A stretch of DNA of 64,000 nucleotides from Solibacillus silvestris. Its GTDB lineage: Bacteria; Bacillota; Bacilli; Bacillales_A; Planococcaceae. Under the pieces are notes generated by a model. It did not search any database, had not been told where the DNA came from, and saw only the letters and a list, made by a program, of their open reading frames with translations. The DNA lies in assembly GCA_001586195.1 (NCBI GenBank), contig CP014609.1, positions 2,454,001 to 2,518,000 on the forward strand, given 5' to 3'. Below are positions 37,766 to 50,020 of this stretch, one piece after another. The translations under genes and the position numbers were made by a program. Each line of letters opens with the position of its first letter. The first letter of the stretch is position 1.

Positions 37766-39697
37766 TTATTTCTTCACTTCTGCAGTAATGTCTGCCAGGA
37801 ACTGTTCAAAGCTGATTGTTTCTGAATCCTTCGAACCGTAACGGCGGATATTTACCGCATTTTCTGCAACTTCTTTATCTCCAAGTACAAGCATGTACGG
37901 GATTTTTTGCATTTGTGCTTCACGGATTTTATAACCTAGTTTTTCTTCGCGGTCATCCATTTCCACACGGATACCAGCTGCAGCTAACTTTTCTTGTACT
38001 TCGCGTGCATAATCATAATGCACTGCGTTTGATACAGGAATAATTGTTGCTTGCACTGGCGCCAACCAAGTCGGGAATGCCCCTTTGTATTCTTCAATTA
38101 AGAATGCTACGAAACGTTCCATTGTCGATACAACACCGCGGTGGATAACAACTGGGCGTTGAGGCTGACCGTCTTCACCAATGTAAGAAAGGTCGAAGCG
38201 TTGTGGTAATAAGAAGTCAAGTTGTGCAGTCGATAATGTTTCCTCTTTACCAATAGCTGTTTTTACTTGAACGTCTAGCTTCGGACCATAGAATGCTGCT
38301 TCATCTTCTGCGATGAAGTAATCATAACCAAGCTCATCCATTGCTTCTTTTAACATCGCTTGTGCAGTTTCCCACATTTGATCGTCATCAAAGTATTTCT
38401 CAGTGTTGTTCGGATCGCGGTAAGAAAGACGGAATGAGAAATCTTTAAGATCAAAGTCTTTATAAACTTCTAAAATCAGTTCCACTACTTTTTTGAATTC
38501 TGCTTTAATTTGATCCGGACGTACGAAAATGTGCGCATCATTTAAAGTCATCCCGCGTACTCGTTGTAGACCAGATACGGCACCACTCATTTCATAACGG
38601 TGCATTGTTCCAAGTTCTGCGATACGGATTGGTAAGTGACGGTAAGAGTGCAGACCGTTTTTGAATACCATCATATGGTGAGGACAGTTCATTGGACGTA
38701 AAACAAGTGTTTCATTGTCCATTTCCATTGGCGGGAACATGCCATCTTGATAGTGCTCCCAGTGTCCTGATGTTTCGTATAATTTTTTCGAGCCAAGCAC
38801 TGGTGTGTAAACGTGTTTGTAACCTAAAGATAATTCTTTATCTACAATATAACGTTCAATAGTACGGCGGATTGTTGCACCGTTTGGTAACCAAAGTGGT
38901 AAACCTTGACCAACTGTTTGGCTAGTCATGAATAAATCCAATTCTTTACCGATTTTACGGTGGTCACGTTCTTTTGCTTCTTCAAGCATTTGAAGGTGGT
39001 GCTTCAACTCGTCTTTAGTGAAGAATGCAGTACCGTAAATACGTTGCAGCATTTTGTTGTCTGAGTTACCGCGCCAGTAAGCACCTGCTAATGATAATAA
39101 TTTGAACTCTTTTAATTTGCCTGTAGATGGTACGTGTACACCACGGCAAAGGTCAAAGAAATCGCCTTGGTAATAGATTGATACTTGGTCATCTGCTGGT
39201 ATTGCTTCAAGTAGTTCTAATTTGTATTCGTCGCCGACTTCCTCGTATATTTTTTGTGCTTCATCACGAGAAACGTTTTTACGCTCGATTTCGATGTTTT
39301 CAGCAATGATTTTTTTCATTTCTTTTTCGATTGCTGGTAAATCTTCTGCAGTAATCGGTGTTGGTGAATCGATGTCATAGTAGAAGCCTGAATCGATAAC
39401 TGGACCGATACCTAATTTTGCATCCGGGTAAAGACGTTTTACTGCCTGTGCTGTTAAGTGGGCAGTTGAATGGCGAAGAATTTCTAACGCTTCGTCTGAT
39501 TTGTTAGTAATGATTTCGATCGCACCATCTTGTTCGATTCCTGTTTTGGCATCGATTAATGTGCCGTTGATTTTCCCTGCTAAAGTTGATTTTTTAAGAC
39601 CTGGGCTGATTGAGCCTGCAACGTCTAATGTAGATGTTCCCTTGGCAAATTCCTTTACTGCGCCATCCGGGAATGTTAATTTGATCATTTCTGACAT
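37766..39697 (-). CDS. thrS: Threonyl-tRNA synthetase
   Basis: 643 residues, as in B. subtilis. Order: TGS domain (about 1-62), editing domain with [16 protein letters not shown] and the HxxxH/CxH zinc-like site of the N2 domain (RGVHVPSTG), class II catalytic core ([12 protein letters not shown], motif 2 [16 protein letters not shown], motif 3 [11 protein letters not shown]) and anticodon-binding C-terminal domain ([13 protein letters not shown]). Charges tRNA-Thr. ATG follows AAGGAGGA. Expression is governed by the upstream T-box. Confidence 0.97.
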
Positions 39698-39773
39698 GTT
39701 GTTGTCCTCCTTTATTAATTTAAAAATAAATTATTTTGTATTGAAGAGCGAAGGGCATTTTGAGACTAAACTA

Positions 39774-39916
39774 GTTGATTGGAGTGAAGGCGGCGAGTGT
39801 AGCTGACGGCTAACGCCTTTCGCTACAAACTGCGTTTCCTGGGGAAATAGCGTGACGCCTGAGACGTTCGTGTAAGGCCACGCCCCCGGAAAGCGTTCGC
39901 CGTAACTGAAATCAAC
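39774..39916 (-). repeat. Dispersed GC-rich hairpin repeat, copy 3 (variant, in thrS leader)
   Basis: Bounded by GTTGATT and AATCAAC as in copy 2. Read on the minus strand it has ACGCTTTCCGGGGGCGTGGCC and TCTCAGGCGTCACGCTATTT, but the CCTGTAG loop region differs and about 38 bp of extra sequence with GTTAGC-type arms is inserted before the far end. It lies between the thrS T-box terminator and the start codon, in sense orientation. Confidence 0.8.
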
Positions 39917-39951
39917 GGTATTAGTAGCTTCTCTTATTTTTTAGGCAAAAT

Positions 39952-39983
39952 AAAAAGCACCGTCCCAACAAAGGGACGATGCT
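39952..39983 (-). terminator. T-box attenuator terminator of thrS
   Basis: Stem AGCACCGTCCC / GGGACGATGCT (39956-39966, 39973-39983) followed on the minus strand by TTTTTATTTTG. Confidence 0.9.
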
Positions 39984-40200
39984 GTATGCTCGTGGTGCCA
40001 CCCTTCTTCCTTCTTCGCAAAACGAATCAGAAGCTCTCGGTCAGTTAACGTACTGAGAAACGATGACGGATTGGCCCCGTCACTGCTCGAAGGTAGTAAA
40101 GTAAAACGCTTGTGCTAGGAAGCTTGCAGCCGTGTCTTCCCTCTCTAAAAGCCAGTTCGTTAAACTTGTTGTCCTTTTCAATGCATTTATTGTTTATTTA
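39952..40200 (-). promoter_or_regulatory. T-box riboswitch leader of thrS
   Basis: Minus strand shows the T-box AGGGTGGCACCACGAGC (around 39988-40004) immediately before the attenuator, and upstream stem I sequence with AGAGAGGGAAGA. Threonine codons ACU/ACC occur in the CUUUACUACCUUCG stretch (about 40090-40105) where a specifier is expected, but I could not place the loop with certainty. Uncharged tRNA-Thr should switch on thrS. Confidence 0.88.
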
Positions 40201-40207
40201 CGTACAA

Positions 40208-40236
40208 AGTATACGCTCGATTTTGCAGAAATGCAA
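40208..40236 (-). promoter_or_regulatory. thrS promoter
   Basis: On the minus strand TTGCAT (40231-40236), a 17-bp spacer and TATACT (40208-40213), placed just before the T-box leader. Confidence 0.75.
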
Positions 40237-40262
40237 TATTGAAAAATAAAACTTTCAATATT

Positions 40263-41222
40263 TTATTTTCTGCGGTTTGTTCCTGTAATTTCAAGCGGTG
40301 TTGTTAATGCCTGTACTCGTTGTAAAATACGGCCCGATTTCATTTCGTCAATTGCCCCATGTTCGGTTACCGCCCATTGTTCTTCCAATTGTTTGTAATT
40401 GAAGTTGGACGATATAAACGTCGGTAATTTTTCCGCCATTCGATAATGCAAGATTGACCCGATAATTTCATCTCTTGTCCATGTAGAAATCGGCTCTGAA
40501 CCTACATCATCCAGCATCAGTACCGGCACTTTTTTTACAAAATCGATTTTCTGCTCAATCGATCCCTCTGTTACCGACGACTTTAATTCTCGGATGAATT
40601 CCGGCATATACACTAACAAAGTTTGAATCCGTTCTTTGGATAAAGCATTTGCGATGGCACCTAAAATATAGGTTTTGCCAACACCAAATGTTCCGTATAA
40701 ATACAGCCCTTTTGCAGGAAGTTCTTTTGTTTCCCGATATTGCTTCCTGAATTCGACCATAAACTGTGTTGCAGCCATACGGGAGTTATCATTCATATCC
40801 ATTTCATTAAAGTCTGCATTCAGGACATCTTTTGGCATATACATGGTCTTCATCATTGAAGCTAGCTCACGCTGATCATCTTCTTTTAACATTTGCTCAC
40901 ACTTGCGGTAAATAATATTAATCTGACCATTTGAAAGCATTAATTGCGGAACATGGCCTTTATAGAAATTTTGACACTGCGATGTTGAACCGGCTCCACA
41001 GCAAGTGTGCTTTTGCTCTACAAATTCAAAAAGTGTCGTCATTCCATATTGAATAACAGCGGAGTTTTCCGTCATATTATGGTCATTCATAAACTGTTGT
41101 ACACTTGGATGTGATAGCACCCGGTTTTTTAATTCATTATATTTTTGCTCAAATGATGGGATATTAATTTTATTGAGCGAATCTTTTATTGGTTCGATCG
41201 TACTCACCTGCTTTTTAATCAC
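40263..41222 (-). CDS. dnaI: Primosomal helicase loader DnaI
   Basis: 319 residues: N-terminal domain with a cysteine/histidine zinc-type cluster (HTCCGAGSTSQCQNF) and an AAA+ ATPase domain (Walker A LYGTFGVGKTYILG, Walker B VLMLDDVGSEP, sensor ISSNFNYKQL). It loads the replicative helicase DnaC. The frame opens with GTG at 41222, overlapping dnaB by 8 bp; a second GTG at 41207 aligns better with the B. subtilis start, and neither has a strong ribosome site. Translational coupling to dnaB is likely. Confidence 0.92.
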   Translation of the reverse strand: MIKKQVSTIEPIKDSLNKINIPSFEQKYNELKNRVLSHPSVQQFMNDHNMTENSAVIQYGMTTLFEFVEQKHTCCGAGSTSQCQNFYKGHVPQLMLSNGQINIIYRKCEQMLKEDDQRELASMMKTMYMPKDVLNADFNEMDMNDNSRMAATQFMVEFRKQYRETKELPAKGLYLYGTFGVGKTYILGAIANALSKERIQTLLVYMPEFIRELKSSVTEGSIEQKIDFVKKVPVLMLDDVGSEPISTWTRDEIIGSILHYRMAEKLPTFISSNFNYKQLEEQWAVTEHGAIDEMKSGRILQRVQALTTPLEITGTNRRK

Positions 41223-43962
41223 TATTTAATTGCTCTAATAACTTTTTGCGTTGCTCTTCAAAATCAATTGGGTTTTGAGTATTGCTAGAATTAGTTTGTT
41301 GTACAGGTACCTGATCTTTTTCTTTAAACCAATCCGGCACTACGCCAACTTTCCTTGCACCGCGTTGTTTGTTCTTCTTGTCTTGCATTTCAGTATAAAC
41401 TTTCGCTTGGGTAATCGTCTGAATTTTATTGTTTCGCCATGTATTTGCGACACTGTTAATATATTTTTCAGGCAATGCACCTTCTGTCTTTTCCATTACA
41501 TACTCTAGCATGTAATTGACGACAGCCGGGATCATCTTGTAATGCAGGATCAACTTTTCTGCTGTTGCGACAACATACGCAAATGGTTCATGACCATCGT
41601 TTAATTCTTTTGTAAAAAGATAAGGCGTCGCTTTTTCATAGCGGGCCAATTCAGGCGTAAACACATAATCCCCCGGATAATATTTCGGTAAATCCTGCTC
41701 GGTAATTTTCACGTCTACTTTGTTTTCTTTATAATTTGTTTCAATGTAAGCAAGTGCATCTTTAGCCAACAGGATATCTTTCAGCTGCATATTTAGTGCC
41801 AGCGTCTGAATTTGATTACGTCCAAAACGGCTCGTTTTATTCGTTAATATAAATTCAAGAATTGCGTTGACAACACCAACTTTAATGCCATGTTTTAATA
41901 CAAGGTCATCCACTTGCTTCACTAACATTTCAACCGGTTCTTTACCGTTAAGTAAGTTTTTCATGAAATCATATGGCAATGTTTCATCGAAAGCCGGAAT
42001 CCATTTTGACATATCCTTAACCGTAACTTTAAATGCAAGCGGTGTATCCATCGTAATTTTAGAAGCCTTCAATTGAGATCCATCGCTTTCTTCAACAATA
42101 CGAAGGGCTTCCAAAGCATTTGCAGGCGGATTTAACATCCAGTTACCTGCGATTGACTGCACAAAGTTTTTTGTCAGTTTCCCGTTACTCTCGTTGTAGG
42201 CATATTCCATCAGCACGTTGACAGCGCCGACCGAAAGCCCTTGCTGCAATACGAGTTCCTCCGCTAAATCGACAATAAATTTTACCGGCTTTTTCCCTTT
42301 ATACAGCGATTTCAAGAAATAATAAGGAACCGTTTTATCATAGTGAATTGATTGGTCATCTACCGTTAAATAATCTTCTGTCACTTTAATAAGATTGCGT
42401 TCATTTCGCTTTTCAATATAGTCCAATGCTTGCTCTGCTGTTTTAATTTGATTGTATCGGATTTCAGATGCCAACGCTTCTACAAACGATTCTGGTAGGT
42501 TTCCTTTTGTTGAATCCCAAACATGGCGAATAATGACGTTCGCCACTTCGATCGGTATATCATAAGAACTGTAAAGCGATTCTGCTATTTTCACATGCCC
42601 TGAAAACGGTTCTTCACCATGAGTCAATATAAGTAAATACTGATAAGGCGTAGAATTTTTAAAATCAACTAACGCTGAATCAGGAGAATCATTTTTCGAG
42701 TTATTATTTTCTTCAACTTTATTCAAATCGTTATTCGTAACCGTAATTTGCGATAAATTTTTCGATTTACGATCACGGTAGCTATGTTCAACTTTTGCAA
42801 TTTCCATTGTATTTTCAGCTGTTTTTGCACCTTTTTTCAGCCAGTTATTCATGACAACCTTCATAAAGTTTTTATTGTAATTCAGTTCATCATTCATTGA
42901 AATATAATGAATCAAAACATTCAATGTGCCGTAAGATACCCCTTTTCTAATGAAATTGTTAAATTCCATTACAACGGATTCCGGTGGCAAATAACCATTA
43001 AATTTTTGAAAAACTTCTATCGGTGAGGTTTTTTCTAAATACTCGATTAAACCTTCTTTATCATTAATATTTCGCTGTGTTTTTGCAGGTGCAGTGTTCA
43101 TTACTTCTACCGAACGGAAAATGTCCTGTTTTTTGATCAGTTTCGGTTTCGAGACACCGACGTTCAACTGGTAATATTCTTCACAGCGTTTTTCCAGCTC
43201 TTTTTTTGTAAGTCCATCATCTGTATCCCATGCCAATAACACAATTCTTTGCATGTCCGTTACAGAGAAATTGTACATGAAAGCTAATTTGGCAATAGCA
43301 ATTTTAATATCAAGTGTAAATAATTTACTCGGAATCAAGTTTTGGCTCATGCCCATCATGAAGCTTTTGAAATCAAATAAGTCATACTCAAACGGGTACG
43401 ACATTTTTGAACGTTCATTTACCGAACCTGTATTTTCCTGCATGACTTGCTTTAGCTCAGTTTCTGTTATTGCTACAAATGCATCGTTAAAGCTGCATGT
43501 CACATCTTTGTATCCATGTAAGGAAATATCATGTTTCGTTAATTTATTTCGCAATGCTTCATACTGTTCACGACCGATTTTTCGTAAAAGTGCTACCGAA
43601 AGAATCGAATCGTCAAAAAAATCGCGGCCAGTCAAAGGCGGATATAAAATATACTTCATTGATTTATATGAATCCATCATTTTTTCAAATGACTTCACTA
43701 AACCAATTGCCTCTAATACAATTCTTGCTTGTAGTAATTGCTTCGGTTTAAAACTTAATGAATCTAGCAGGTTGCTATGAAAACAAGTTGCTTTTTCCTG
43801 TTGTTGTGTTTCAACCCATAACTTTAAATATAATGCGGTAGCTTCAACACCGATAATCGGCTGATAGCATAATTGCAATGCAAGCTGATGCTCACTAGTG
43901 ATATTTTGAGGGCAATGAATTTCACAATGGTCATATGGATTTAGCTGATTCATCATTACCAT
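41215..43962 (-). CDS. dnaB: Replication initiation/membrane attachment protein DnaB, expanded form
   Basis: A 915-residue DnaB, about twice the B. subtilis protein (roughly 470). The N-terminal winged-helix part (DDBH1, about 1-275) looks normal. It is followed by five tandem copies of the DnaB/DnaD C-terminal (DDBH2) domain at about residues 304-385, 432-516, 539-624, 656-742 and 774-858, with a PDWFKEKDQ tail. Copies share a (T/V)PY..L..L..G..P motif, a V.N central helix and an NW/NTW segment. Canonical DnaB carries two. The gene keeps its nrdR-dnaB-dnaI context. It should act with DnaD and DnaI in primosome assembly at oriC and at restart sites. ATG follows AGGAGGG. Confidence 0.92.
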   Translation of the reverse strand: MVMMNQLNPYDHCEIHCPQNITSEHQLALQLCYQPIIGVEATALYLKLWVETQQQEKATCFHSNLLDSLSFKPKQLLQARIVLEAIGLVKSFEKMMDSYKSMKYILYPPLTGRDFFDDSILSVALLRKIGREQYEALRNKLTKHDISLHGYKDVTCSFNDAFVAITETELKQVMQENTGSVNERSKMSYPFEYDLFDFKSFMMGMSQNLIPSKLFTLDIKIAIAKLAFMYNFSVTDMQRIVLLAWDTDDGLTKKELEKRCEEYYQLNVGVSKPKLIKKQDIFRSVEVMNTAPAKTQRNINDKEGLIEYLEKTSPIEVFQKFNGYLPPESVVMEFNNFIRKGVSYGTLNVLIHYISMNDELNYNKNFMKVVMNNWLKKGAKTAENTMEIAKVEHSYRDRKSKNLSQITVTNNDLNKVEENNNSKNDSPDSALVDFKNSTPYQYLLILTHGEEPFSGHVKIAESLYSSYDIPIEVANVIIRHVWDSTKGNLPESFVEALASEIRYNQIKTAEQALDYIEKRNERNLIKVTEDYLTVDDQSIHYDKTVPYYFLKSLYKGKKPVKFIVDLAEELVLQQGLSVGAVNVLMEYAYNESNGKLTKNFVQSIAGNWMLNPPANALEALRIVEESDGSQLKASKITMDTPLAFKVTVKDMSKWIPAFDETLPYDFMKNLLNGKEPVEMLVKQVDDLVLKHGIKVGVVNAILEFILTNKTSRFGRNQIQTLALNMQLKDILLAKDALAYIETNYKENKVDVKITEQDLPKYYPGDYVFTPELARYEKATPYLFTKELNDGHEPFAYVVATAEKLILHYKMIPAVVNYMLEYVMEKTEGALPEKYINSVANTWRNNKIQTITQAKVYTEMQDKKNKQRGARKVGVVPDWFKEKDQVPVQQTNSSNTQNPIDFEEQRKKLLEQLNSD
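41389..43053 (-). repeat. Five tandem DDBH2-encoding repeats within dnaB
   Basis: Coding repeats map to about 42808-43053, 42415-42669, 42091-42348, 41737-41997 and 41389-41643. Units are about 85 codons with linkers of 22-46 codons. Protein similarity is clear but the DNA has diverged, so the expansion is old rather than a recent slippage or assembly artefact. Confidence 0.85.
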
Positions 43963-43978
43963 TTATCCCTCCTAACAC

Positions 43979-44446
43979 TTATTTGTCATTTGACTGACGG
44001 GTCATAATTTCTTTCAGTTCCTCGATAAAGACTGTAATATCTTTAAATTGACGGTAAACAGAGGCGAAGCGCACATAGGCCACCTCATCAATTTTTGCAA
44101 GTCGGTCCATCACCATCTCCCCGACATTTTCCGAGCGTACTTCCGCATTGCCTAATCGGCGTAATTCCTTTTCAATTGATAGGACAATCTCTTCTAATTG
44201 ATCTAATGCAACTGGTCGCTTTTCACATGCGCGGATCAGACCACGCAACACTTTTTCACGACTAAACTCCTCGCGTGAGCTATCCTTTTTCACTACGATT
44301 AAAGGGGTTTCTTCAATTTTTTCAAATGTCGTAAAGCGAAAAGCACAAGATTCACATTCACGACGTCTGCGAATTTCTTTATTATCATCAACAGGTCTTG
44401 AGTCTACAACGCGTGTACCGTTGTATTGACAAGCTGGACATCTCAT
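43979..44446 (-). CDS. nrdR: Transcriptional repressor NrdR
   Basis: 155 residues: N-terminal zinc ribbon ([17 protein letters not shown] with the second CxxC in CESCAFRF) and an ATP-cone domain (about 49-139). It senses ATP/dATP and represses ribonucleotide reductase genes. The stop is 17 bp before dnaB, as in B. subtilis ytcG-dnaB-dnaI. Confidence 0.96.
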
Positions 44447-44478
44447 ATAATAATTTCTCCTAAAAGTTAGTTTATTCT

Positions 44479-44524
44479 ATTATAACAAAAACAACGCGCT
44501 TGAAATAGTGCTTCACGCGCGTTG
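44479..44524 (-). promoter_or_regulatory. nrdR promoter region with GC-rich dyad
   Basis: A perfect -10 TATAAT (44479-44484 on the minus strand) is preceded by CAACGCGC/GCGCGTTG arms (44492-44499, 44517-44524) and a T run. The dyad could be a second gapB terminator or a regulator site; the -35 is weak. Confidence 0.45.
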
Positions 44525-44581
44525 AAATTTTCCAATGGAAAGTCATTCAATTATATAGTGCATTGGTGCTTCACACAATAG

Positions 44582-44627
44582 AAAAAGCCTTTTGCAAAAA
44601 TGGTTTGATTTTCCGCAAAAGGTTTTT
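44582..44627 (-). terminator. Terminator of gapB
   Basis: A 13-14-bp stem AAAAAGCCTTTTGC / GCAAAAGGTTTTT with a 19-base loop and T-rich tail on the minus strand. Confidence 0.75.
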
Positions 44628-44691
44628 CTGTTACATCAGACGTATTTACGCCTTTTTGAAGTGATCTATCACATTTTAACAAGCATTAAAA

Positions 44692-45711
44692 TTATGCATT
44701 TACTGTTGCTAATTCGTTTGCAATTTTCTTTGTTAAGTCTACTACGCGTGCAGAGTAACCCCACTCATTATCATACCATGCGATAACCTTTACTTTACGG
44801 TCTCCCAATACAATCGTAGTTAAGCCGTCTACAGTAGATGAGTACGTTGTTGTATTGTAGTCAGAAGATACTAATGGCTCCATAGAGAAGTTTAAAATAC
44901 CGTTCATTTTGCCGTCAGCTGCCGCCTTAAATGCCGCATTTACTTCTTCTACTGTAACGTCTTTTTCTACATCTACAACTAAATCAACTAAAGAAACGTT
45001 TGGTGTTGGTACACGTAATGCCATACCATGAATTTTCCCATCCAATTCCGGTAATACAAGGCGCAATGCTTTTGCTGCACCAGTTGAAGTTGGGATAATT
45101 GATGATCCGCAGTTACGCGCACGACGTAAATCTTTATGAGGGTTATCGATGTTGTTTTGATCGTTTGTATAAGCGTGAACTGTTGTCATTAAGCCGTTTA
45201 CAATGCCGAACTCATCGTTTAATACTTTTGCTACAGGAGCTAAACAGTTTGTCGTACAAGATGCATTTGAAATAACATCATGCTTTGATAAATCCAATTT
45301 ATCATCATTTACACCTAAAACAACGGTAATATCTTCATTTTTACCAGGAGCAGTTAAAATAACTTTTTTCGCGCCAGCTTCAATATGTTTTGCTGCTTTT
45401 TCACGTTCATTAAATTTGCCAGTAGCTTCGATTACGATATCTACACCCATTTGAGCCCATGGTAATTTTAATGGATCGCGTTCACTAACTAATTCAACAC
45501 GTTTGCCGTTTACAATTAAGGCACCTTCGACTGCTTCTACAGTCCCCGGGAACATACCATGATTTGTGTCATACTTAATTAAATGTGCTAACGTTTCAGA
45601 TGGATAGCTTGCATTCACCGCTACGATATTCACGTCACCGCGCATCATTGCTTGTCGGAACACCATACGACCAATGCGGCCAAAACCATTAATTGCAATA
45701 GAAACTGTCAT
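44692..45711 (-). CDS. gapB: Glyceraldehyde-3-phosphate dehydrogenase, GapB type
   Basis: 339 residues. Rossmann start [16 protein letters not shown], active-site [12 protein letters not shown] with the catalytic cysteine, and phosphate-site [15 protein letters not shown]. Length and position next to coaE and nrdR match B. subtilis gapB, the NADP-preferring gluconeogenic enzyme; the residue after the first strand (VNASYPSE rather than the NDL- type acidic residue) fits NADP use. Direction in the cell is inferred. speD, which follows gapB in B. subtilis, is absent here. Confidence 0.92.
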
Positions 45712-45853
45712 ATTATTTAAATCCTCCTAAAAGTACGATTCATTCGTTTTGTTTATTCGTTGATTAGTATAACACATATTATAAAAAGTTGAACATATTT
45801 AATCCACTAAATTAAATTTGTTATTTTCAGATAATACATACCCTCAAAATAAA

Positions 45854-45890
45854 AACCTCAACCCAATTTTTAATAAAATTAGTTGAGGTT
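45854..45890 (-). terminator. Terminator of coaE
   Basis: A 9-bp stem AACCTCAAC / GTTGAGGTT followed on the minus strand by TTTATTTTG. Confidence 0.75.
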
Positions 45891-45895
45891 ATATT

Positions 45896-46492
45896 TTACT
45901 TCAGTACATTCCATTCATACAAAATATTTTGAAGCTGAATTGCCGTATCTTCCAGCGTACCGTTATTATGAATGACAGCATCAGCTAGCTGTTCTTTTTC
46001 TTTTACCGGAATTTGTGAGGCAATACGGGCATTTGCTTCATCTTCCGTAAAGCCGTTTCGTTCCATTAAGCGCTGCAGCTGAACTTCTTTATTTACAGAA
46101 ACAACAATGATTTTTTCAACGAAATGTTCCAGCTTGCTTTCAAATAACAGCGGAATATCCATGAAAATGTTTTTTTCTCCATAAGACATTAATTCATCAC
46201 GCTGACGCAGCATTTCTTCACGAATAGCCGGATGTATAATGCTATTTAAAGTTTTTCGCATTTCTTCATCATGAAAAATAATACTTCCCACTTTTGCACG
46301 GTCCATTGAACCATCGTGTGCAACGACTTCCGGTCCAAATGCTTCCGCAATTTTTTTTAATGTCGGTGTACCAGGCTCGACTACTTGCCGCGCCACTAAA
46401 TCGGCATCAACGATTGGTAATCCGTATGACTCAATCATTTTAGCAACTGTACTCTTTCCACTGGCAATACTACCTGTTAAACCAATAATCAC
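45896..46492 (-). CDS. coaE: Dephospho-CoA kinase
   Basis: 198 residues. P-loop GLTGSIASGKST, DADLVARQVVEPG and MDIPLLFES motifs are all present. Last step of CoA synthesis, phosphorylating dephospho-CoA. The start is GTG at 46492 after AAGGGG. It follows mutM by 12 bp, without the ytaF that separates them in B. subtilis. Confidence 0.96.
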   Translation of the reverse strand: MIIGLTGSIASGKSTVAKMIESYGLPIVDADLVARQVVEPGTPTLKKIAEAFGPEVVAHDGSMDRAKVGSIIFHDEEMRKTLNSIIHPAIREEMLRQRDELMSYGEKNIFMDIPLLFESKLEHFVEKIIVVSVNKEVQLQRLMERNGFTEDEANARIASQIPVKEKEQLADAVIHNNGTLEDTAIQLQNILYEWNVLK

Positions 46493-46504
46493 AGCAATTC
46501 CCCT

Positions 46505-47389: not shown

Positions 47390-50020
47390 TTATTTCGCAT
47401 CGTACCATGTAGCACCATATGAAAACTCAACCTTTAAAGGCACACTTAACTTAATTGCATTTTCCATAACTTCAGGTACGATACGTTCTAAAATTTCAAT
47501 TTCTTCTTTTGGTGCTTCAAAAATAAGCTCATCGTGAACTTGTAATAATAACTTCGTCTGTAATCCTTCTTGTTCAAGGCGTGCGTTCATATCAATCATT
47601 GCTTTTTTAATAATATCCGCTGCACTTCCTTGAATTGGTGTATTCATCGCAGTACGCTCTGCAAAACTTCTTAAATTGAAGTTCGAACTTGTAATGTCCG
47701 GCAAGTAGCGGCGGCGATTTAAAATCGTTGTAACGAACCCTGCTTTCTTTGCCTCTTCAATACTTGTATCCATATAGTTTTTTACACCCGGGAAGCTTTG
47801 CAAATAGTTTTCGATAAAAATTGCCGCTTCTTTACGGGTAATATCAAGGCTTTGCGATAAGCCGTAATCACTAATCCCGTATACAATACCAAAGTTAACA
47901 GCTTTTGCAGTGCGACGCATTAAACTTGTCACTTCGTCCGGATTCTCAAGATTAAACACATCCATCGCCGTACGCGTATGGATGTCCATCCCTTGCTGGA
48001 ATGCCTCTACAAGCGCATCATCTCCGCACATATGAGCCAATACGCGCAGCTCAATCTGTGAATAGTCCGCCGCAAACAAAATCCAATCCTTTTTCGACGG
48101 AACAAATGCTTTTCGAATTTTGCGTCCTTCTTCTAAACGAATCGGGATATTTTGTAAATTCGGGTTCGTTGAGCTTAAACGCCCAGTTGAAGTTAATGCC
48201 TGCTGGAATCGGGTATGCACTTTTGAATCTTCTTTATGCACTTCTTTTATTAAACCTTCAATATATGTTGACTGCAGTTTCGCAAGCGTTCGGTACTCAA
48301 GAATATGCTTCACAATGTCATGCTCGGACTGTAACTTCTCCAGTACATCGGCTGCTGTTGAATATCCTGTCTTTGTCTTTTTAATGACAGGTAAGCCTAA
48401 TTTATCAAATAAGATAACACCAAGCTGTTTCGGTGAATTAATATTGAATTTCTCGCCTGCCAGCTCATAAATTGTCGCTTCCATTACTTTAAGCTTTGCC
48501 TTCAAATCATCACCCATTTGACGTAATGTATCAATATTGACAGTTATCCCTTCGCTCTCCATTTTCCCTAAAATATGTGCAAGCGGCAGCTCCAGCTCTT
48601 TGTATAATTCAAACTGTTCATTTTCCTTCAGCTTTTGCTCTAATAAAGGCTGCAGCTTCCAAACTGCTACCGCTTTTCGGCTCACATGTTCAGCTACATG
48701 ATCCGCACCTGGAACAACCCACTTCGCCCCTTTTCCGTAGATTGCTTCATTGGATTGGACATCCTGGTAACCGAATTCCTTTGCAAGTGTTGCCACATCA
48801 TCACCAGATATCGACGGCTTTAAAATGTACGAAGCTAATAATAAATCGAACTCCACGCCTTTAAGCTCAATCCCTAAACGATGGAGCATTGCTTGTGTTG
48901 CTTTACTGTCCACAATATACTTTTTCTTAGTTTCATCTTGCAGCCATGCTTTTAAGTCCGCATTATCAACTACATTATCAATCGCTGTATAAACCGTACG
49001 TTCTCCGTCTGACAAGGCTAAACCGAGGGCATTACAGCTATGGTAATGTTCGTTTTCCAACTCGAGGTGGATTGCCATCGTTTCTTTTAACATGTCGCCT
49101 GTAATAGCCTGTACATTTTCAAATACTAATTCAGCTTGTTCCGTTTCTACTGCTTCAAAATCACTTTTTTCGATTAAAGATTTAAAGCCAAGCTCTTGCC
49201 ATACATTAAGAAGTGCTTCCTCATCCGGACCTGCATATGCTAAATCATCAAGTGAAATTGTTAGTGGTGCATCTGTATGAATTGTCGCAAGCTTTTTTGA
49301 TAAGTGAGCCATTTCTTCATTGTCTACCAGCTTTTCTTTCATTTTCGAAGCTTTCAATGAATCCATCGCTTCATATAATTTTTCAATCGTCCCGTGTTCC
49401 TTCAATAATTTAATCGCTGTTTTTTCACCAACGCCTGGAACTCCCGGAATATTATCGGATTGATCACCCATAAGCCCTTTCATATCGATAATTTGCTCCG
49501 GTGTCAGTCCATATTTTTCTTCAATATGTGCAGGTGTATATTTTTCGATATCGGTAATCCCTTTACGGGTAATATATACTGTGACATCCTCTGTTGCGAG
49601 CTGCGTTAAATCTTTATCTCCTGAAACAACGATAACTTCGATCCCTTGTCCAGCAGCCTGTTTTGCTAACGTTCCGATAATGTCATCCGCTTCGTACATT
49701 TCCAGTTCATAGCGTTTAATGTTGTATGCATCAATCAGTTTTCGAATATAAGGGAATTGTTCGGAAAGCTCTGGCGGAGTTTTTTGACGGCCCCCTTTAT
49801 ATTCACCGAATGATTCATGACGAAAAGTCGTTTTGCCGGCATCAAACGCAACAAGCATTTGTGTCGGATTTTCCTCACCGATAATTTTTTGCAGCATCGT
49901 TGTAAATCCGTAAGTCGCATTTGTATGAATCCCGCTGTCATTTGTCAGCAGCGGCAATGCAAAAAAGGCACGATAAGCCAATGAGTTTCCATCTAGTAAA
50001 AGCAATTTTTGTTTTGTCAT
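47390..50020 (-). CDS. polA: DNA polymerase I
   Basis: 876 residues: 5'-nuclease domain (about 1-295, LLLDGNSLAYRAFFALPLL), a vestigial 3'-5' exonuclease fold (about 300-465) and polymerase palm/fingers (FAADYSQIELRVLAHMCGDD motif A, KAVNFGIVYGISDYGLS O-helix, LLQVHDELIFEAP motif C). The proofreading acidic residues are not apparent, as in other Bacillus-type enzymes. Fills gaps in repair and Okazaki processing. ATG follows GGAGGAAC. Confidence 0.97.
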   Translation of the reverse strand: MTKQKLLLLDGNSLAYRAFFALPLLTNDSGIHTNATYGFTTMLQKIIGEENPTQMLVAFDAGKTTFRHESFGEYKGGRQKTPPELSEQFPYIRKLIDAYNIKRYELEMYEADDIIGTLAKQAAGQGIEVIVVSGDKDLTQLATEDVTVYITRKGITDIEKYTPAHIEEKYGLTPEQIIDMKGLMGDQSDNIPGVPGVGEKTAIKLLKEHGTIEKLYEAMDSLKASKMKEKLVDNEEMAHLSKKLATIHTDAPLTISLDDLAYAGPDEEALLNVWQELGFKSLIEKSDFEAVETEQAELVFENVQAITGDMLKETMAIHLELENEHYHSCNALGLALSDGERTVYTAIDNVVDNADLKAWLQDETKKKYIVDSKATQAMLHRLGIELKGVEFDLLLASYILKPSISGDDVATLAKEFGYQDVQSNEAIYGKGAKWVVPGADHVAEHVSRKAVAVWKLQPLLEQKLKENEQFELYKELELPLAHILGKMESEGITVNIDTLRQMGDDLKAKLKVMEATIYELAGEKFNINSPKQLGVILFDKLGLPVIKKTKTGYSTAADVLEKLQSEHDIVKHILEYRTLAKLQSTYIEGLIKEVHKEDSKVHTRFQQALTSTGRLSSTNPNLQNIPIRLEEGRKIRKAFVPSKKDWILFAADYSQIELRVLAHMCGDDALVEAFQQGMDIHTRTAMDVFNLENPDEVTSLMRRTAKAVNFGIVYGISDYGLSQSLDITRKEAAIFIENYLQSFPGVKNYMDTSIEEAKKAGFVTTILNRRRYLPDITSSNFNLRSFAERTAMNTPIQGSAADIIKKAMIDMNARLEQEGLQTKLLLQVHDELIFEAPKEEIEILERIVPEVMENAIKLSVPLKVEFSYGATWYDAK

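Follow-up and report, generated by a model that had tools for sequence, protein, structure and literature searches.

The locus and the architecture of its long DnaB

The 64,000-nucleotide stretch of Solibacillus silvestris DNA analysed here, referred to throughout as the window, carries on its minus strand a single open dnaB frame of 915 codons plus stop (41215..43962), assigned by the NCBIfam DnaB models and by a DnaB match in the Protein Data Bank (PDB; E 5e-47). It is flanked upstream by nrdR (43979..44446, minus strand), a native flank by its DNA similarity to the short-DnaB sister species G005, and downstream by dnaI (40263..41222, minus strand, 319 codons), which overlaps the end of dnaB by 8 nt and which, according to identity comparisons and the DnaI tree, has diverged jointly with it; the native order of the locus is nrdR-dnaB-dnaI-thrS. 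We hold, with a little more confidence than doubt, that the best explanation is a chromosomal helicase-loading protein DnaB, of the Bacillus type, in a long-armed form, including its exchange together with dnaI and the arm mechanism set out below.

A previous sequence-only reading of the window had proposed a single 915-residue frame with the N-terminus and tail of DnaB in the order nrdR-dnaB-dnaI, and both the coordinates and the domain matches agree with it. A chance or false frame is ruled out, as the frame is open and has counterparts of 96–97% identity in five congeneric species and of 46–48% identity in another genus, which also bears out the expectation that the long form is maintained. 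The protein falls below the cut-offs of both NCBIfam DnaB equivalogs (315 bits against 570 for NF053829, and 307 bits against 800 for NF052657); as most DnaBs of the class, that of B. subtilis included, also score under the NF053829 cut-off, this does not define the family, and being so far under both, the gene may miss the name dnaB in automatic annotation. No second dnaB copy was found in the window's genome, nor Rfam elements in 39000–46500, nor DNA repeats of note that would explain the modules described below, nor a useful shift in GC at the locus.

Residues 1–285 correspond to the N-terminal and middle domains whose structures are known from the DnaBs of Geobacillus (5wtn, 30–31% identity) and B. 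subtilis (29km). The N-terminal domain (NTD; residues 1–195, 43378..43962, minus strand, as are all the following), which in B. subtilis serves tetramerisation and docks DnaA, retains the DnaA-dock positions D122 and F161 of B. subtilis as D118 and F158, both invariant in 18 long DnaBs. The middle domain (MD; about residues 196–285, 43108..43377), besides its match to 5wtn, is the usual degenerate DDBH2 that has been described for DnaB (PMC5204125; PMC3290774). Next comes module 1 (residues 310–389, 42796..43035), by the family profile, the module tree and its groove residues an ordinary C-terminal domain (CTD) of the kind that is the DnaD dock in B. subtilis. It is followed by modules 2 (residues 434–516, 42415..42663), 3 (541–622, 42097..42342), 4 (658–740, 41743..41991) and 5 (775–856, 41395..41640), all recognised by the family profile and the module tree, and the fourth also by its fold when modelled alone. 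A relaxed YxxxIxxxW motif is kept in modules 1, 3 and 5, while the tryptophan is lost in module 2 and the motif in module 4. The C-terminal tail (residues 857–915, 41218..41394; GVVPDWFK...IDFEEQRKKLLEQL), placed by alignment to that of B. subtilis, where it is the DnaI dock, closes the protein. Four modules of CTD type have been added, and they are placed between the ordinary CTD and the DnaI-binding tail.

The Pfam family DnaB_2 (PF07261) matches the protein with E 1.7e-26 and four stretches passing independently, so that the search returned at least the four significant DDBH2 stretches set beforehand as the threshold; a six-frame search with the same family finds four places in the dnaB frame, three of them over the curated cut-off. 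A DDBH2 profile trained on the window's family finds all five units (E ≤ 1e-23), although it was seeded with these units and is not independent of them, and the five are alignable across four genera. The AlphaFold2 model, built with 18 long DnaBs, repeats the same six-helix unit five times with modest confidence (predicted local distance difference test, pLDDT, 69; predicted template modelling score, pTM, 0.29), the mutual arrangement of the modules not being reliably predicted. Against the DnaB structures of NTD and MD the model gives Z 18.2 over 258 aligned residues, but with a root-mean-square deviation (rmsd) of 13.6; its residues 198–269, in the middle domain, match the DnaD domain 2i5u (Z 5.9), and module 2 matches a DnaD C-domain (Z 9.3, 84 residues, 2.8 Å), the target chain being itself an integrative model. 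A Foldseek search with the full model retrieves at E ≤ 0.001 only relatives of the NTD and MD. A separate model of module 4, the most degenerate of the five, was built from 58 modules and has pLDDT 87; its two best PDB matches are the C-terminal domains of DnaD proteins, with weak E-values.

The five DDBH2-type copies of the CTD claimed from the sequence alone are thus found as four independent Pfam stretches, as five hits of the family profile and as five units of the model. The count of five DDBH2 domains instead of two stands for the CTDs, of which there are five where there was one, and falls short for the protein, since the middle domain, itself a degenerate DDBH2, had been left uncounted: the DDBH2-like units number six where an ordinary DnaB has two, and the added modules are four rather than the three proposed. 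The modules are only 14–32% identical to one another, in accordance with the view that the copies differ strongly, and this divergence of their sequences indicates that the expansion is old.

Distribution, origin and probable exchange of the long form

In a survey of 261 species of the window's family, 259 of which gave a DnaB match, most DnaBs have about 446–501 aa and one CTD. A five-CTD DnaB of 863–935 aa occurs in 20 of the 261 species, in four genera, with exactly five CTDs in all the long proteins fetched, and a two-CTD DnaB of 576–615 aa in 12 of the 261, in two genera. The sequence-only reading had allowed for the long form being the norm of the family, which the survey of lengths rules out. 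The lineages that carry it are Metasolibacillus, a part of Ureibacillus (U. xyleni, U. acetophenoni, U. manganicus and Lysinibacillus endophyticus), Metalysinibacillus together with Lysinibacillus alkalisoli, and the window's genus (6 of 16 species). Among the roughly 155 matches listed from 399 genomes sampled evenly across the class, frames of more than 600 aa appear only in the window's family; a DnaB frame of 591 aa lies outside it (G464:C1:876194-877534), possibly another domain addition. No published description of a DDBH2 array was found in the open literature, subscription papers lying outside this coverage.

In the tree of modules, modules 2–5 from all the long lineages form one clade (support 100/99), and a tree that unites all five from one Ureibacillus protein is rejected (p 7e-47 in the approximately unbiased test, p_AU), which rules out an independent five-CTD expansion in each lineage; module 1 groups with the ordinary CTDs. 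On a species tree built from six flanking genes, the window's genus has its long species deep among its short ones, and at least six changes between the long and the short state are needed, one of them inside this genus. The NTD and MD of the window's clade belong with those of Metasolibacillus to a type of their own, monophyly of the genus being rejected for them (p_AU 1.7e-6) and likewise for DnaI (p_AU 0.017). At the DNA level, identity between the window and G005 stands at 88% until 5 nt short of the dnaB start and returns, at 86%, inside dnaI, and the segment between (40551..43966) lacks clear similarity, except for one piece of 77 nt in dnaI, within flanks of 86–88%.

What changes with the form of dnaB is dnaI. 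In five pairs formed by a long species and its nearest short relative, DnaI is 42–60% identical, whereas ThrS, NrdR, DnaA and the helicase are 73–98% identical and DnaD, in the three pairs where it is comparable, 74–84%; in short-short pairs DnaI itself reaches 68–87%. DnaA, DnaD, the helicase, PolA, ThrS and NrdR are all native where the dnaB form and dnaI have switched, and the genes of the first three, encoded elsewhere, agree with the flanking genes linked to the locus. The trees and identities, taken together, show lineages apparently exchanging long and short forms at the native nrdR-dnaB-dnaI-thrS locus. Horizontal arrival with a replaced dnaI, which the sequence-only reading had missed, is best supported for the window's clade; a burst of change may have been added. 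A search for a phage, plasmid or viral-contig source gave no match over the array, apart from one weak match of a single module to an Anoxybacillus plasmid.

In the long forms of Ureibacillus the exchange takes another shape: the NTD and MD are native, in the comparison of G280 with G274 native similarity continues through module 1 and ends there, and only the part after it, plus dnaI, is foreign-like, so that some long DnaBs are mosaics within the gene. G274 itself (L133, compared with L111 of G280) is a Ureibacillus of the short form lying within a group of long ones, and its DnaI joins that of another Ureibacillus subclade, so that a swap back to the short form is suggested. PolA of the window (47390–50020) is closer to that of G005 (0.97) than to that of G001, of its own clade (0.95), the PolA of G005 and G007 being only 0.89 identical. 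Recombination around this locus seems to be common.

Several points weigh against a joint transfer. Between one long lineage and another, DnaI identity is only about 46–47%, as low as with short ones, so that no common donor is visible; these DnaIs group with modest support (92/83) and on long branches; fourfold-degenerate sites are near saturation, in the flanking genes too, and do not decide between transfer and burst; and dnaI adjoins dnaB, so that the two could have moved jointly by linkage alone. The first three are counted in favour of a history without transfer, an ancient long variant having been kept in place while dnaB and dnaI went through a rapid joint burst of change in each long lineage, and the tree of the NTD and MD has long branches as well. 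However, within the long clades the rates are ordinary (window and G001: DnaI 0.98, NTD and MD 0.95), the DnaIs of the genus's short species group in a single clade that excludes the long ones, the modules are positionally orthologous with those of Metasolibacillus, which is not the sister genus, and the edge of identity at the dnaB start is sharp. We regard such a burst, on its own, as improbable, and the long form as a real expansion of a known protein, rare, of single origin and passed horizontally along with its partner gene.

The added modules and the DnaI dock

In B. subtilis, an alanine scan has shown that the CTD residues L315, L350, Y360 and L364 are required for the binding of DnaD, the YxxxIxxxW face has been linked to higher-order assembly, the C-terminal tail binds DnaI, and CTD and tail are predicted to mask one another until DnaD binds (PMC13326638). 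The DnaD groove, an AlphaFold3 (AF3) model in the same work, was mapped onto the modules by alignment. Position 364 is hydrophobic in all ordinary CTDs (37/37), in all modules of two-CTD DnaBs (24/24) and in all first modules (15/15), and in none of the 60 added modules, where position 315 is aromatic without exception (60/60); in module 1 of the window's clade the groove residues are 315 L, 350 V and 364 M, all of them conservative. The absence of the groove pattern makes extra DnaD docks unlikely. The best reading of these residues is that the array would be a longer arm with surfaces for DNA or self-assembly rather than more docks for DnaD, against which it must be counted that the relaxed YxxxIxxxW is complete in only 38 of the 60 added modules.

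If this is accepted, (i) module 1 would still dock the tail of DnaD; (ii) the four added modules would form the longer arm, possibly DNA-binding or self-assembling, most of them keeping the YxxxIxxxW face; (iii) the tail, at the tip of the arm, would hand over a matched complex of DnaI and helicase; (iv) and finally, the pairing of tail and DnaI would be specific to each form, for which reason the C-terminal part of dnaB and dnaI would move together. As the tail adjoins module 5 and not module 1, gating by DnaD may differ from that of B. subtilis.

The added modules could instead be tolerated ballast, that is, a neutral domain expansion with no role of its own. In the window's clade modules 2 and 4 lack the tryptophan of the motif, and five could be a frozen number, whose constancy requires no selection because modules so different (14–32% identical) can hardly recombine; the five nevertheless persist as intact folds with conserved core positions across the deep divergence of four genera, and we find this explanation no easier to believe than that of the burst. 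Least likely of all is that the added modules multiply the DnaD docks, one DnaB tetramer holding many DnaD tails as an avidity platform, the sense in which the changed DnaD interaction of the sequence-only reading would have to be taken and in which it is not supported: the CTD of B. subtilis does bind the DnaD tail (PMC13326638), and the 30 DnaDs read, whether their host has a long or a short DnaB, share the conserved tail FYNWL, yet positions 364 and 315 depart from the groove in every added module, and DnaD is unchanged where the form of DnaB has changed.

Copies of the DnaB tail are found in mobile initiators. A tail profile, leaning to short tails, was searched in 48 genomes (28 short-form and 20 long-form hosts) and recovers dnaB in all of them together with 27 other fetched proteins with the motif P-x-W-F ... 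DFExERxKILxKL at or near the end, one of them weak; one further candidate, with the motif internal, was discarded. The phage-like DnaD proteins and plasmid initiators with such an end (L031, L032, L272-L294, L296, L297, L240 at 1691-2686 and L241 at 1502-2644) include carriers on the Sporosarcina plasmid pA38H4 and on a plasmid of Planococcus lenghuensis. Seven of the proteins, two of which come from named plasmids, comprise two DnaD-like proteins with PF07261, two Rep3, two RepA_N and one without a Pfam match. In Metasolibacillus the copies are all nearest to the DnaB tail of that genus (5/5), one Rep3 of the window's clade is nearest to the tail of its clade (KIGVVPDWFK vs KVGVVPDWFK), and one RepA_N in a long-form host is nearest to the long-form tails of Ureibacillus. 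Overall, 25 of the 27 are nearest to the group of their own host (permutation p 5e-5), with a statistic that ignores kinship among the elements and a matching by best score in which 40 short tails compete with 3–6 per long type; most of the copies, 20 of 27, come from short hosts. Among short hosts, 15 of 28 have a strong copy, against 2 of 20 among long hosts (Fisher p 0.002).

Our reading, from motif similarity, is that these mobile initiators carry a putative DnaI dock resembling that of DnaB, a candidate signal for recruiting the host's helicase loader. Phages are known to target DnaI, as in the example of phage 77 (PMC4887207). Mobile elements recruiting DnaI by copies of the tail could have been the driver of the swaps, in that a swapped pair of tail and DnaI would free the host, although escape from the theft of the loader is speculative. 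On the other side, a looser cut-off removes the excess of copies in short hosts (15/28 vs 6/20, p 0.14), and the copies may not bind DnaI. It is thus a possibility to be entertained, and one that we would not yet wager on, that matched pairs of DnaB arm and tail with DnaI are interchangeable across genera by recombination, and that phage and plasmid initiators unrelated to one another (DnaD-like, Rep3, RepA_N) follow with tails of the host form, in an arms race over helicase loading.

Core replication-initiation proteins are usually regarded as architecturally fixed. Here DnaB, an essential factor of helicase loading in bacteria, has gained an insert of four domains exactly between the DnaD dock and the DnaI dock, apparently exchanged with dnaI at the native locus. 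Sister species that differ in form, and the mosaic within the Ureibacillus gene, are natural experiments on the role of the arm, and they bear also on the proposal, made for B. subtilis, that DnaD binding controls when the tail is released.

Relation to known systems

The nearest known systems are the DnaB of B. subtilis (472 aa, 29km; PMC13326638) and residues 1–300 of that of Geobacillus (5wtn), which share with the window's protein the order of NTD, degenerate middle DDBH2, CTD and tail, the DnaA-dock positions, the tail motif and the adjacency of dnaB and dnaI; they have one CTD, whereas the window's DnaB has five, with the array between CTD and tail and its probable horizontal exchange with dnaI. 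The two-CTD DnaBs of the family (L018, L019, L048-L053, L064-L067) likewise have the CTD duplicated between the NTD-MD part and the tail, but by a separate duplication, as the second module falls outside the five-CTD clade, the groove pattern at position 364 is kept in all of their modules, and their DnaI is natively placed. DnaD (DDBH1-DDBH2) and the three-domain CD3653 of C. difficile have the same DDBH2 fold and YxxxIxxxW motif, in one or two copies and with no DnaI-binding tail described (PMC5204125), in which they differ from the window's DnaB. Finally, ORF104 of phage 77 and a phage homologue of DnaI (PMC4887207) attack or replace the DnaI step from a mobile element, a precedent for the selection proposed here, although as an inhibitor and a substitute loader they differ from a copy of the DnaB tail.

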